64,000 nucleotides of DNA from Microvirga thermotolerans (GTDB lineage Bacteria; Pseudomonadota; Alphaproteobacteria; Rhizobiales; Beijerinckiaceae): positions 2,262,001 to 2,326,000 of the forward strand of contig NZ_CP045423.1 of NCBI RefSeq assembly GCF_009363855.1, in the 5' to 3' direction. Made by a program: the position numbers and the translations under genes. Position 1 is the first letter of the stretch. Every line of letters begins with the position of its first letter. Positions 39,058-63,546 of this stretch are shown piece after piece. Below the pieces are notes generated by a model. That model did not search any database. It was not told where the DNA came from and worked only from the letters and a program-made list of their open reading frames with translations.

Positions 39058-39198
39058 CGCGAGTCTCCGTTAAGCGTTCGCTAAGCCTAACCGTCCAACG
39101 TGAACAAGAGCTAAACTGTTCCGCCTGTCCGAGGAAGATGTCCATTGGGAGGGAAGGACGACACGAAAGGGCTTCCCCGTCAGGTGATTTTGTGGCTT

Positions 39199-39365: not shown

Positions 39366-41483
39366 ATGAAAACCAATGCCAAGAAACGCGAATCAGCACG
39401 GACGAAAGTCCCCATGACCGATAACGACGATCTCTTCGGCGGCGCTCCGGCGCCCGCCAAGCGGGCCGGCGCGGCCTCGGGCCGGAGCGCACCCTCGGCT
39501 GCACGGACGTCCCGGCCGGCGCCGCAGGGCACCCCGGGCGAGAGCGGCTACGACGCCTCCGCCATCGAGGTGCTGGAGGGGCTCGAGCCGGTCCGGCGCC
39601 GCCCCGGCATGTATATCGGCGGCACCGACGAGAAGGCCCTGCACCACCTCTTCGCCGAGGTGATCGACAACTCCATGGACGAGGCAGTCGCCGGCCATGC
39701 GAGCTTCATCGAGGTGGAGCTGGAGGAAGGGAACTGGCTCTCCGTGACCGACAACGGGCGCGGCATCCCGGTCGACCCGCATCCGAAGTTCCCGAAGAAG
39801 TCGGCCCTCGAAGTGATCATGACCACCCTCCACGCAGGCGGCAAGTTCGACTCGAAGGTCTACGAGACCTCGGGCGGCCTGCACGGCGTCGGCGTGTCGG
39901 TGGTGAACGCCCTGTCCGAAACCCTGGAGGTGGAGGTCGCCCGCGGCCAGACCCTCTACCGGCAGGTCTTCTCGCGGGGCGTCCCGAAGACCGGGCTGGA
40001 GACCGTCGGCCGGGTCCTGAACCGCCGCGGCACGAGGGTGCGCTTCAAGCCGGACGCGCAGATCTTCGGCAAGGACGCCCATTTCCAGCCGCGCCGCCTG
40101 TTCAAGATGGCGCGCTCGAAGGCCTACCTCTTCGGGGGCGTCGAGATCCGCTGGAAATGCGCGCCCTCGCTCCTGGAGGGCATCGACAACGTGCCTGCGG
40201 AGGCGACCTTCAGGTTCCCGAACGGCCTGAGGGACTACCTGCTCCACGACATCGAGGGCAAGGAGCTGGTCACGGACCAGATCTTCGCCGGCAAGGTCAC
40301 GAAACCCGGCAGCCACGGCTCCCTGGAATGGGCGGTCGCCTGGATGACGCAGGAGGACGGGTTCTCTACCTCCTACTGCAACACGGTCCCGACACCCGAG
40401 GGCGGCACCCACGAGAACGGCCTGCGCATCGCGCTGCTGCGCGCCCTGCGCGACCACGCGGAGCGCGTGGGCCAGGCGAAGCGCATGGCGGCGGTGACCA
40501 CCGACGACGTGATGGCGACCTGCGCCTCCATGCTGTCGGTCTTCATCCGGGAGCCGGAGTTCCAGGGCCAGACCAAGGACAAGCTGGCGACCGTGGAGGC
40601 GGGCCGCATCGTCGAGGCCGCGATCCGCGATTCCTTCGATCACTGGCTCGCGGCCTCCCCGCAGCAGGCCAACAAGCTGCTCGACTGGGTGATCGACCGG
40701 GCCGAGGAGCGCCTGCGGCGGCGCCAGGAGAAGGAGGTCGCCCGCAAGACCGCGACCCGCAAGCTGCGCCTGCCCGGCAAGCTCGCGGATTGCACGAATG
40801 CGGGCGCCAAGGGCTCCGAGCTGTTCATCGTCGAGGGCGACTCGGCTGGCGGCTCCGCCAAGCAGGCGCGGGACCGGGCGACGCAGGCGGTGCTGCCGCT
40901 CCGCGGCAAGATCCTCAACGTGGCCTCGGCCGGACGGGACAAGCTGCACCAGAACCAGCAGCTCGCGGACCTCGTCCAGGCGCTCGGCTGCGGCACGGGC
41001 TCCCATTACCGCGACGGGGACCTCCGCTACGAGAAGGTCATCATCATGACCGACGCGGACGTGGACGGCGCCCACATCGCCTCGCTGCTCATCACCTTCT
41101 TCTACCGGCAGATGCCCCGCCTCATCGACGGGGGGCATCTCTATCTCGCCGTCCCGCCCCTCTACCGGCTGACCCAGGGCACCAAGACCGCCTATGCCCG
41201 CGACGACGCGGACCGGGACCGGCTGCTCAGGACCGTGTTCAAGGGCAACGGCAAGGTGGAGATCGGCCGCTTCAAGGGCCTTGGCGAAATGCTGCCGAGC
41301 CAGCTGAAGGAGACCACCATGGACCCGAAGAAGCGCCTGCTCCTGAAGGTCGTGGTCGAGGCCGAGGAGCGCCCGGAGACCGGGGAGACGGTCGAGCGCC
41401 TCATGGGCAACAAGCCGGAGGCCCGCTTCACCTTCATCCAGGAGCGCGCCGCCTTCGCCGACGAGGCGGCCCTCGACATCTGA
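39366..41483 (+). CDS. parE: DNA topoisomerase IV subunit B
   Basis: A 705-residue ATPase subunit of the decatenating topoisomerase IV. It has a GHKL ATPase domain with EVIDNSMDEAVAG near 90, VTDNGRGIP near 125 and GGLHGVGVSVVNAL near 165. The transducer follows, then a Toprim domain with LFIVEGDSAGGSAKQARDR near 490 and the MTDADVDGAHIASLL metal site near 560. It lacks the insert found in GyrB of many proteobacteria, which supports ParE. The first 50 residues are a variable Ala/Pro-rich leader; an alternative ATG is at 39414. It stands alone and ends at the palindrome 41500-41519. Confidence 0.95.
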   Translation: MKTNAKKRESARTKVPMTDNDDLFGGAPAPAKRAGAASGRSAPSAARTSRPAPQGTPGESGYDASAIEVLEGLEPVRRRPGMYIGGTDEKALHHLFAEVIDNSMDEAVAGHASFIEVELEEGNWLSVTDNGRGIPVDPHPKFPKKSALEVIMTTLHAGGKFDSKVYETSGGLHGVGVSVVNALSETLEVEVARGQTLYRQVFSRGVPKTGLETVGRVLNRRGTRVRFKPDAQIFGKDAHFQPRRLFKMARSKAYLFGGVEIRWKCAPSLLEGIDNVPAEATFRFPNGLRDYLLHDIEGKELVTDQIFAGKVTKPGSHGSLEWAVAWMTQEDGFSTSYCNTVPTPEGGTHENGLRIALLRALRDHAERVGQAKRMAAVTTDDVMATCASMLSVFIREPEFQGQTKDKLATVEAGRIVEAAIRDSFDHWLAASPQQANKLLDWVIDRAEERLRRRQEKEVARKTATRKLRLPGKLADCTNAGAKGSELFIVEGDSAGGSAKQARDRATQAVLPLRGKILNVASAGRDKLHQNQQLADLVQALGCGTGSHYRDGDLRYEKVIIMTDADVDGAHIASLLITFFYRQMPRLIDGGHLYLAVPPLYRLTQGTKTAYARDDADRDRLLRTVFKGNGKVEIGRFKGLGEMLPSQLKETTMDPKKRLLLKVVVEAEERPETGETVERLMGNKPEARFTFIQERAAFADEAALDI

Positions 41484-41537: not shown

Positions 41538-41873
41538 TCACCGGCCCGGCCGCCGGTAGGAGGACTTCCGGGGCGCGTCGGTCCCCGTCGCCGTCTGGAT
41601 GCAGGTGAGCACCTCGACATAGCTCGGATAGCCGCCGACGCTCGTCTCCTCCACGCAGCGCCTGCGCAGCGGCTCCGCGACCGCATCCCACTGCTTCGCG
41701 AGGTCCGCGCGCGCTTCCGTCTCCTCCTTCATGCAGGTCTGCTGGGGAGCGGTGTCGCTGGGATCGAGGGCGACGGCGGCCTTGCAGGTCGACTGGATGT
41801 CGAGGACCGGGACCTCCGCCGCCACGACGGGGGTGGCGAGGAGGAAGAGCGGGATGGCGGCCAGACGCAGCAT
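41538..41873 (-). CDS. Exported small protein with four cysteines, unknown
   Basis: A 111-residue protein with a clear Sec signal peptide (MLRLAAIPLFLLATPVVAAE, cleavage after an AxA-like site near residue 19). The mature part of about 92 residues is mostly helical, with four Cys residues (about 30, 47, 73, 91) that could form two disulfides in the periplasm. C-terminus Arg-rich (SSYRRPGR). It resembles small periplasmic proteins of Hyphomicrobiales without known role. Convergent with parE. Confidence 0.75.
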   Translation of the reverse strand: MLRLAAIPLFLLATPVVAAEVPVLDIQSTCKAAVALDPSDTAPQQTCMKEETEARADLAKQWDAVAEPLRRRCVEETSVGGYPSYVEVLTCIQTATGTDAPRKSSYRRPGR

Positions 41874-42038
41874 GGTTTCCTCCTCGGGTCATGCGGGACA
41901 ACCGGGCCCGCGCAGCCGCGCATGGGGCGGCCTCGCCTCTCTCCTATCACAACCGGCATCCCGGGGAACGCGATCGGATGCCTCCGCTACGGGCGATCTA
42001 CCTCCAAAGGGTCGGCTGAAAATTTTTTGGAAACTTGC

Positions 42039-42064
42039 GGAACCCTACACCCTGCTTCAACGTT
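42039..42064 (+). promoter_or_regulatory. EcfG (general stress sigma factor) type promoter
   Basis: GGAAC (42039-42043), 17-base spacer, CGTT (42061-42064). The alphaproteobacterial EcfG/SigT consensus is GGAAC-N16/17-CGTT. CGTT lies within a 14-base palindrome CTTCAAC/GTTGAAG (42055-42068). Confidence 0.55.
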
Positions 42065-42069
42065 GAAGG

Positions 42070-42136
42070 GCATCACCGGCCTATTCTGCCCCCACGGGCC
42101 GGTCCCTCAAAGGCTCCCGAAAGGGGCCTTTTTTTT
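42070..42136 (+). ncRNA. Candidate small RNA, about 65 nucleotides
   Basis: This gene-free segment starts right after an EcfG-type promoter, contains a CCGGCC/GGCCGG hairpin (42077-42082, 42097-42102) and ends in a strong intrinsic terminator (42109-42136). No protein frame with a ribosome site fits inside, and the rnr start is 166 bases further on. The arrangement promoter-hairpin-terminator is that of an sRNA. The alternative is a transcription attenuator in a long rnr leader. I cannot match it to a named alpha-proteobacterial sRNA family. Confidence 0.5.
42109..42136 (+). terminator. Intrinsic terminator of the candidate sRNA
   Basis: AAAGGC (42109-42114) pairs with GCCTTT, and CCC with GGG, across one bulged T and a GAAA tetraloop; eight T residues follow (42129-42136). 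The T-run sets the direction as plus strand, yet no plus-strand protein gene lies between parE and this point. Confidence 0.85.
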
Positions 42137-42302: not shown

Positions 42303-44621
42303 TTGGCTAAGCGCTCCAAACCGTCTCCCGCGCCCCTCCCCTCCCGCGAGGAGGTGATCGCCTTCATCGCCAGCGCCCACGGCAAGGTCGGCAAGCGGGA
42401 GATCGCCCGCGCCTTCAACGTGCAGGGCGGCGACCGGATCTGGCTCAAGCAACTCCTGAAGGATCTGGAGATCGAAGGCGTCGTCGACCGGCGCGGCAAG
42501 ACCGTCCACAAGGCGGGCCAGCTCCCCCCCGTGGTCCTCGCCGACATCAAGCGCCGGGACCGGGACGGGGAGCTGGTGGCCGAGCCGACGGAGTGGGACG
42601 AGGAGGAGCACGGCCCGGTCCCGACCATCGTCATCGTCCCGCCCCGCAAGCCGCGCCCGGGCATGCCCGTTGCCGGCGTCGGCGACCGGGCGCTCCTGCG
42701 GGTCGACCCGCTGAAGCCCGGAGACATCCACCGCTATGCGGGCCGGGTGACGAAGATCGTCGCGAAGAAGCAGGCACAGGTCCTCGGCATCTTCCGCGCG
42801 CTGCCGGAGGGCGGCGGCCGCCTCGTCCCCGTGGACAAGAAGGCCCGCGACCAGGAGCTCCCGATCCGGCCCGGCGACGAGGCCGAGGCCCTCGACGGCG
42901 ATCTCGTCTCCGCCTCCATAGTGAAGCACGGCCGGTTCGGGCTGCCCCACGCGAAGGTCAGGGAGCGGCTCGGGTCCGTAAAGTCGGAGAAGGCCGTCAG
43001 CCTCATCGCGATCCATGCGCACAACATCCCGAACGAATTTTCCAAGGAGGCCCTGGCGGAGGCGGAACGGGCACAGCCCGTCGCCCTGGACGGGCGCGAG
43101 GACTGGCGCGACGTTCCCCTCGTCACCATCGACCCGCCCGATGCGAAGGACCACGACGACGCGGTCCACGCGGTCCGGGACGAGGACCCTCACAATGCGG
43201 GCGGCTTCATCGTCACCGTCGCCATCGCCGACGTGGCGGCCTATGTACGGCCCGGCTCCGCCCTCGACCGGGAAGCCTTGGAGCGGGGCAATTCGGTCTA
43301 TTTCCCGGACCGGGTCGTGCCCATGCTGCCGGAGCGGATTTCCAACGACCTCTGTTCCCTGCGCCCGCACCAGCCCCGCCCTGCCCTCGCCGTCCGGATG
43401 GTGCTCGGCCCCGACGGGCGCAAGAAGAGCCACAGCTTCCACCGGGTCATGATGCGCTCCGCAGCAAAGCTGTCCTACAGCCAGGCGCAGGCGGCTATCG
43501 ACGGCCGGCCCGACGAGATCACCGGCCCCATCCTCGATCCGATCCTCAGGCCCCTCTGGGCCGCCTACGAGACCGCGAAGAAGGCCCGCGACGTCCGCGA
43601 GCCGCTTTTCCTCGACCTGCCGGAGCGCAAGATCGTGCTCAAGCCCGACGGCACCGTCGACAGGGTCTTCGTGCCCGAGCGGCTGGAGGCCCATCGGCTC
43701 ATCGAGGAGTTCATGATCCTGGCGAACGTCGCCGCAGCGGAGACCCTGGAGAAGGCCCAGTCGGACCTGATCTATCGCGTCCACGACGAGCCTTCCCTTG
43801 AGAAGATGCGGGCACTGAGCGAGGTTCTGGCCTCCATCGGCCTCAAGCTCCCCGCCCAGGGCGCCCTGAGGCCGGAGCTGTTCAACCGGATCCTGCGCGG
43901 CGTCGAAGGGTCCGAGCACCAGCTCTTCATCAACGAGGTGGTGCTGCGCTCCCAGTCCCAGGCGGAATACTCCGCCGAGAACTACGGCCATTTCGGCCTG
44001 AACCTGAGGCGCTACGCCCACTTCACCTCCCCGATCCGCCGCTATGCGGACCTCGTCGTGCACCGGGCGCTCATCCGCGCCCTCAGGCTGGGGAGCGACG
44101 GCCTGCCGGCGGACACGACCCGGGCGGAGCTGATCGAGATCAGCGCGCGGATTTCCGCGGCGGAGCGGCGAGCCATGGCCGCGGAGCGTGAGACAATCGA
44201 CCGCCTGATCGCCCACTTCCTCGCCGACCGGATCGGCGCCACATTCGAGGGGCAGATCTCCGGCGTCACCAAGGCCGGCCTCTTCATCAAGCTCAACGAG
44301 ACCGGCGCGGACGGTTTCGTCCCCGCCGGCACCATCGGCGCCGATTATTACCGCTACGACGAGAGGACCCACTCCCTCCGCGGCGAGCGGACCGGCGAGA
44401 CCTATCGCCTCGGCGACCGGGTGCGCGTCAAGCTGGTGGAGGCCGCCCCCGTCGCCGGGGCCCTGCGCTTCGAGCTTTTGTCCGAGGGGCGCTACAGCCA
44501 CCGTCCCGCGGGCGGCGCGAAGGCGCGCGGAGGCAAGGCCTCGAAGGCCGCCAAGAAGACGGAGAAGCCCGGGCGCCGCGCCGCGCCCAAGGTGAGGGTG
44601 AAACGGCGCGGACGCGCCTGA
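42303..44621 (+). CDS. rnr: Ribonuclease R
   Basis: A 772-residue processive 3'-5' exoribonuclease able to degrade structured RNA. An N-terminal winged-helix and two cold-shock OB domains (to about 240) precede the RNB domain with the catalytic acidic motif TIDPPDAKDHDDAVH near 277. A C-terminal S1 domain (FEGQISGVTKAGLF near 650) and a Lys/Arg-rich tail follow. The start is TTG at 42303; no in-frame ATG or GTG lies between it and the upstream stop codon. A 9-codon ATG frame (42281-42310) overlaps the start. The order topA ... rnr-DUF983-NUDIX-rpmG fits Hyphomicrobiales. Confidence 0.95.
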   Translation: MAKRSKPSPAPLPSREEVIAFIASAHGKVGKREIARAFNVQGGDRIWLKQLLKDLEIEGVVDRRGKTVHKAGQLPPVVLADIKRRDRDGELVAEPTEWDEEEHGPVPTIVIVPPRKPRPGMPVAGVGDRALLRVDPLKPGDIHRYAGRVTKIVAKKQAQVLGIFRALPEGGGRLVPVDKKARDQELPIRPGDEAEALDGDLVSASIVKHGRFGLPHAKVRERLGSVKSEKAVSLIAIHAHNIPNEFSKEALAEAERAQPVALDGREDWRDVPLVTIDPPDAKDHDDAVHAVRDEDPHNAGGFIVTVAIADVAAYVRPGSALDREALERGNSVYFPDRVVPMLPERISNDLCSLRPHQPRPALAVRMVLGPDGRKKSHSFHRVMMRSAAKLSYSQAQAAIDGRPDEITGPILDPILRPLWAAYETAKKARDVREPLFLDLPERKIVLKPDGTVDRVFVPERLEAHRLIEEFMILANVAAAETLEKAQSDLIYRVHDEPSLEKMRALSEVLASIGLKLPAQGALRPELFNRILRGVEGSEHQLFINEVVLRSQSQAEYSAENYGHFGLNLRRYAHFTSPIRRYADLVVHRALIRALRLGSDGLPADTTRAELIEISARISAAERRAMAAERETIDRLIAHFLADRIGATFEGQISGVTKAGLFIKLNETGADGFVPAGTIGADYYRYDERTHSLRGERTGETYRLGDRVRVKLVEAAPVAGALRFELLSEGRYSHRPAGGAKARGGKASKAAKKTEKPGRRAAPKVRVKRRGRA

Positions 44622-63139: not shown

Positions 63140-63275
63140 ACAGGATCCGGCTCTCGGCCATGGGCGGATCCGGCGCGTGGCACCCGGACCGCACCTGCAA
63201 GCCACGCGTGAGTCCGTGGGGGCCGGAAGGGCGCCCCTACCGATGGCTGGAGAGATTCGCAAGAAGGAGAGAGGT

Positions 63276-63325
63276 GGCCAGCTGGCGACGGTGTTGAGGA
63301 GGCAACGTCCCGCCTCCAGCTGGCC
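63276..63325. repeat. Nested inverted repeats in the gene-free interval
   Basis: GGCCAGCTGG (63276-63285) with CCAGCTGGCC (63316-63325), and inside it GGAGGC (63298-63303) with GCCTCC (63312-63317); the two share a couple of bases and may be alternative folds. A further CTCCGCT/AGCGGAG palindrome lies at 63382-63397. Confidence 0.5.
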
Positions 63326-63546
63326 GAGCCTACGAAGTCCCAGGAGATGCGGCGGACCTGAGCATCCGTAGGGCATGCCTGCTCCGCTCTAGCGGAGGAT
63401 CTGGCATGAACATATAGGAAACATTCGGGAGCGCAAGCGCGCAAAGGGGCCCAAATGCGGGAATTTGGCGGAGGCTAGCACGAGAATTGTGGAAAACAAG
63501 AATCGTTTTGCGGAAAAAATCGAACCAAAGCCGCACGCCCGACCGA

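Follow-up and report, generated by a model that had tools for sequence, protein, structure and literature searches.

Does the space between parE and rnr in Microvirga thermotolerans hold the gene of a stress-induced small RNA, and if so, of what kind? We analysed a window of 64,000 nucleotides, the whole stretch of DNA to which the positions below refer. In the ORF list of the window, parE ends at 41483. The rnr gene (RNase R) starts at 42303 and a minus-strand ORF of 111 amino acids starts at 41873. The gap between these two starts is 429 bases, the size given in the initial annotation. The 111-aa ORF (41541-41873, minus strand) has a signal-like N-terminus and no Pfam match, and few relatives carry it at their loci. 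The candidate sRNA gene lies at 2.304 Mb of the genome, and the ecfG-nepR-phyR genes lie at about 1.399 Mb. The locus is laid out as follows:

42020-42028, plus strand: A/T tract 5' of the -35 box, possibly an UP-like element
42039-42064, plus strand: sigma-EcfG-type promoter, with the -35 box GGAAC at 42039-42043, a 17-base spacer and the -10 box CGTT at 42061-42064
42071-42136, plus strand: predicted sRNA of about 66 nt, with a presumed start 6-8 bases past CGTT
42075-42082 paired with 42096-42103, plus strand: 5' hairpin with an 8-bp stem, from the fold prediction and the pairing in aligned rows
42083-42095, plus strand: C-rich loop AUUCUGCCCCCAC of 13 nt, the proposed mRNA-binding seed
42104-42108, plus strand: CCCUC linker, single-stranded in the fold, possibly a second anti-Shine-Dalgarno patch
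42109-42136, plus strand: intrinsic terminator, with the stem at 42109-42131, a GAAA tetraloop at 42119-42122 and eight T (the U-tract) at 42129-42136

The promoter GGAAC-N17-CGTT and the GAAA-tetraloop terminator with its eight T residues are present exactly where the initial annotation had put them. The hairpin that it had placed at 42077-42102 also exists, but its bounds had to be corrected, the stem spanning 42075-42103.

How much does the promoter match mean? In the window, the pattern GGAAC-N17-CGTT has 3 sites where 0.78 would be expected, and 3 of 100 shuffles contain as many. Thus, the match by itself proves little. Genome-wide, the pattern occurs 104 times versus 35 for the pattern read backwards. 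The promoter stands above chance because it is conserved in the loci of relatives. It is in place at all 30 loci retrieved by DNA similarity. At 16 of these the similarity match starts 3' of the promoter, so that the promoter was not selected for there. All 42 loci checked, one per Microvirga genome, combine the promoter and the C-rich loop with an rnr gene that follows on the same strand. Among 29 loci, pairwise identity is 47-48% in the promoter spacer and 97% in the 34-base RNA core, which was chosen by a pattern containing the loop, so that its identity is somewhat selected. In the same number of loci, the 45 bases 5' of the -35 box contain on average 65% A+T (range 53-82%). A chance promoter was rejected, as the promoter is kept both in the Microvirga loci and in other genera, in the strong matches of the RNA model R1 described below. 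About 40 bases past a second GGAAC-N17-CGTT site in the window (39097-39122, minus strand), a 64-aa ORF begins (start 39057). Its product has a hydrophobic C-terminus and matches no Pfam family; it may be a stress-induced small membrane protein.

The predicted transcript, 65-69 nt long across 29 loci, appears to be a structured RNA. The fold of the 66-nt RNA has z = -2.76, and 3 of 200 shuffles are equally good. In 28 distinct Microvirga rows, helix 1 is paired in 100% of cells, and no two-sided stem changes were found within these rows. When other genera were included (20 rows), two-sided changes were seen in 4 of the 8 stem pairs, a result matched by 2 of 500 shuffles; the control with sliding partners yields at most 1 pair. 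The CTGCCCCCAC columns of the loop are invariant in 29 sequences, and the loop is retained in divergent genera. In the 29-row alignment, TCCCTC of the linker region is mostly conserved, and the terminator stem and T run are complete in every row, with a variable terminator loop. The initial annotation had let its claim depend on the conservation of promoter and terminator in relatives; both are conserved, and the claim stands. Comparison of the loci likewise supports the independent unit of about 65 nt, with an EcfG promoter and its own terminator, that it had predicted. Mechanical ORFs do cross the region, and the promoter pattern with its three chance-like matches in the window could suggest a chance promoter and terminator, or else a small protein gene. 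However, 25 of the 29 predicted transcripts lack ATG, GTG and TTG altogether, the other four have such a triplet within the terminator loop only, and the stem and the loop are kept where the promoter spacer has diverged. We consider this explanation very improbable.

The position of rnr allows another interpretation. It lies on the same strand 3' of the promoter and loop at all 42 loci, parE being within the locus at 34. A cis-acting leader or attenuator of rnr, with EcfG transcription entering rnr and the terminator acting as a gate, would fit this arrangement and the usual spacing of about 175 bases: the distance from loop to rnr is 137-180 bases at 35 of the 42 loci. But at the other 7 it is 209-1214 bases, with about 1.2 kb in two of them, and the tie to rnr is thus usual, not strict. 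The terminator, complete in all aligned rows, also argues against a leader, as do siblings and other-genus relatives that have the same promoter away from rnr. The variable distances and the copies elsewhere led us to reject the leader as the main reading, and we regard it as unlikely.

We assessed how far the RNA is distributed beyond the genome of M. thermotolerans. In this analysis Microvirga was assigned to the Methylobacteriaceae. Of 61 genomes searched at the DNA level, 35 gave a match: the own genome and 34 of the 36 other Microvirga genomes; none of the 24 from other genera of the order did. The scan of named genomes, from which the record of the window itself may be missing, yielded 40 stretches with promoter and loop, 38 of them from Microvirga and the others from Salinarimonas ramus and Rhizobiales bacterium YIM 77505. 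Two models were used. R1 is an RNA-only model trained on Microvirga parE-rnr copies alone. R2 was trained with the promoter and with copies from the general stress (GSR) locus of genus g60; its scores for these are therefore by construction. R2 matches 48/48 Microvirga genomes, with a copy of at least 60 bits in 47; the best copy in the remaining one (G026) has 40.4 bits. G002, G006, G007, G984 and G985 carry R2 copies above 60 bits in addition to the 42 genomes whose neighbouring genes were checked. Among the first 30 fetched R1 loci, GGAAC-N16/17-CGTT is found 28-46 bases upstream in 18, including all 16 that score at least 33 bits, and is absent upstream of the 12 weak matches. At 27 further order-wide R1 loci (L061-L087, below about 31 bits) no promoter was found (0/27), and we interpret these loci as chance terminators. 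Class-wide, R2 reaches E <= 0.001 in 3 of 385 genomes, the third of which (G817, 30.9 bits) lacks an exact GGAAC box. Its other matches include a site of unexplained nature (L158, 26.3 bits) and the EcfG promoter of a protein gene (L114, 21.6 bits). Neighbouring genera thus contain homologues of the RNA whose stems have changed on both sides.

The own genome contains ecfG, nepR and phyR at one locus, and near them we found two further RNAs of like design. The second copy (genome positions 1403932-1403998, minus strand; R2 35.6 bits) has an EcfG promoter, a hairpin over AAUGCCCCC and a terminator. It lies behind a PRC-barrel gene, about 3.9 kb past the phyR end, and among the fetched regions this arrangement was also found in five other Microvirga genomes (G016, G029, G012, G034 and G991). 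The third RNA (1400235-1400320, minus strand; L114:8235-8320, minus strand) has the same type of promoter and lies tail to tail with phyR. Nine of 10 inspected GSR loci have such a phyR-adjacent RNA, whose core reads CCGGCC...CUGGUCCUCCCC...AUUCCCCUUGUGCAU.GGCCGG, and pattern matches were obtained in several g33 genomes. In the Rfam scan of its L114 region, no family reaches the gathering score. Both RNAs have an EcfG promoter, a similar stem and exposed cytosines, and both are within a few kb of ecfG-nepR-phyR. Most likely, the parE-rnr sRNA belongs with them to a set of three general-stress siblings in the genome, a set that the initial annotation had missed.

Are the siblings related by descent? 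A strict sibling pattern gave 39 matches in 25 of 198 family genomes versus 9 for the reversed pattern, and 3 versus 1 in the own genome; a few of the 39 matches are unlike this RNA. R1 scores 39 and 33 bits (E 2.5e-9 and 2.7e-7) on the GSR-locus copies of g60, and since it was trained on Microvirga parE-rnr copies only, this link is not circular. On the own-genome siblings R1 gives 19.7 and 18.5 bits, and on a site outside the set 18.9 bits; at such level scores convergence could also explain the likeness and descent is unproved. Because the siblings share the promoter, the stem and the ACCU linker, their common descent is likely, to judge from sequence; their loops differ outside the cytosines. 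The eleven second-copy regions of Microvirga (L154-L164) comprise five at the GSR locus, five of the UUUGCCCCUAC type and one (L161) not assigned to either kind. In some Microvirga genomes, RNAs of the UUUGCCCCUACGG type with an EcfG promoter are located away from the GSR genes (L088-L092). Related hairpins with UUUGCCCCUACGG loops and terminators have no EcfG promoter upstream (L094, L095, L097, L099, L101 and L102) and may be sisters under another sigma factor.

We compared the RNA with known sRNAs. According to excerpts of PMC5869019, GsrN of Caulobacter crescentus (ccna_R0081) is SigT-dependent, and its C-rich 5' loop pairs with katG, the best-known target, and with other G-rich RNAs. Like GsrN, the Microvirga RNA has a consensus EcfG/SigT promoter directly upstream, a C-rich 5' loop predicted to be single-stranded and an intrinsic terminator. 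Unlike GsrN, it is about 66 nt long instead of 106, has a different hairpin and comes as three siblings instead of one. The Rfam family RF01529 (CC3552) is probably the GsrN family, as suggested by length, promoter and place: in a genome encoding a PhyR with 80% identity to PDB 3n0r, it scores 101.3 bits 3' of an EcfG promoter near the GSR locus. This match (L210) and C. vibrioides, which scored above the cut-off, are the positive controls. At our site RF01529 gave no match up to E = 10, and its best match across the own genome, located elsewhere, has 21 bits versus the cut-off of 50. A direct GsrN orthologue was thus rejected, since the covariance model stays below the gathering score at the site and genome-wide, and the sRNA is not assigned to GsrN despite its GsrN-like plan. 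For katG itself (TIGR00198), no match was found in the own genome; it is missing from 43 of 48 Microvirga genomes and found in 5.

Position gives a mixed picture. In the excerpts of PMC5869019, GsrN-like RNAs are recognised by three parameters, among them signs of intergenic transcription and proximity to sigT-phyR; two of our siblings lie close to these genes, and the parE-rnr sRNA does not, being distal to the GSR locus like C. crescentus gsrN itself. The putative GsrN homologues of Rhizobiaceae, R. palustris and B. diazoefficiens were predicted by position (PMC5869019) and are likened here by description. Our RNA shares with them an EcfG-type site and an exposed C-rich loop, and proximity to the GSR locus is shared by the two siblings only. 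Methylobacterium is not mentioned in that paper (0 occurrences). RFMSmelA075/A099 of Sinorhizobium and RS0680a of Rhodobacter are also similar, having several copies per genome, a link to stress and anti-Shine-Dalgarno hairpin loops, as excerpts of PMC3927594 describe. Compared by description, these transcripts differ from ours in their 2-4 hairpin modules with an anti-Shine-Dalgarno motif in each, and the excerpts do not mention an EcfG promoter for them.

The initial annotation could assign no described sRNA family, and in the Rfam scan none reaches its gathering score at the site. The best sub-threshold match is Atu_C8 (18.9 bits versus 50); 6C (18.8 versus 47) and suhB/mmgR (16.6 versus 41) also stay below. 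In the portions of open-licence PMC full texts covered by our search, no account of this RNA was found. Judged by comparison, the sRNA gene is real, conserved, EcfG-driven and of a known kind, and it is undescribed in the literature searched. Elsewhere in the window, at 63271-63376 on the minus strand, there is a match to the EcpR1 sRNA (RF02500) with 69.8 bits versus the gathering score of 60.

Genome comparison shows the promoter, the RNA with its structure, the terminator, the siblings and the GSR locus. We think it quite probable that the product is a sigma-EcfG-driven, trans-acting stress sRNA whose CUGCCCCCAC loop would pair with G-rich mRNA leaders; transcription, stress induction, a role of Hfq, the targets and the direction of regulation are what we infer for it. 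Under stress, PhyR would release sigma-EcfG from NepR. Transcription by RNA polymerase with EcfG would run from about 42071 to the end of the terminator at 42136. In the RNA, a stable stem would expose the 13-nt loop and its CUGCCCCCAC; the CCCUC linker and a U-tail suited to Hfq would follow. The loop would pair with G-rich sequences near the ribosome-binding sites or in the leaders of several mRNAs, and this pairing would alter their translation or stability. Since two siblings adjoin phyR-nepR-ecfG, one signal would raise all three as a set with overlapping targets. GsrN, as described in excerpts of PMC5869019, is a precedent for an EcfG-type sRNA that acts by pairing through its C-rich loop.

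In the excerpts of literature found, the alphaproteobacterial general stress response is mostly described as transcription, with GsrN as the worked example of an RNA arm. A deeply conserved multi-copy set of EcfG-driven sRNAs offers a concrete gene in Methylobacteriaceae, where a post-transcriptional step has been proposed: according to excerpts of PMC4814048, EcfG3 of M. extorquens increases with transcription unchanged, and involvement of a small RNA has been suggested. The family described here would be a candidate for this RNA. It is possible, and we put it forward as a tentative idea that is more doubtful than not, that at least three EcfG-driven siblings (the parE-rnr, PRC-barrel and phyR copies) form a shared post-transcriptional arm of the GSR in Microvirga and its neighbours. 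This arm would descend independently of GsrN, and its C-rich loops would dampen the translation of many mRNAs; secondary EcfG paralogues such as EcfG3 may be among the targets. The set also bears on the question of a single or a repeated origin of stress sRNAs with C-rich loops.

We also searched for targets. Genomic sites complementary to the loop 10-mer number 9 versus 15 in the reversed control, and of the 8 that lie elsewhere than in the gene itself, none can be placed clearly at a start codon. In the duplex test with 15 leaders, none beats the shuffled leaders; for the best, nepR, 84 of 300 shuffles are as low. That no conserved mRNA target emerged from these two tests, together with the nearly invariant loop and the multiple copies, could indicate titration of a protein, for example an RNA-binding protein recognising the C-rich loop, instead of mRNA pairing. 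However, the sibling loops differ outside the cytosines, and the pairing of a C-rich loop with G-rich mRNA has the worked precedent described in the excerpts of PMC5869019. Titration therefore seems to us improbable, and we prefer pairing with mRNA leaders. The motif GGGGGCA is present at 10 sites in the window, one of which is the gene's own antisense. At 13398-13392 on the minus strand it is located three bases 5' of the ATG of a MAPEG-family ORF (start 13388), downstream of the IMP dehydrogenase gene. This GGGGGCA could pair with UGCCCCC of the loop, which is only a lead.
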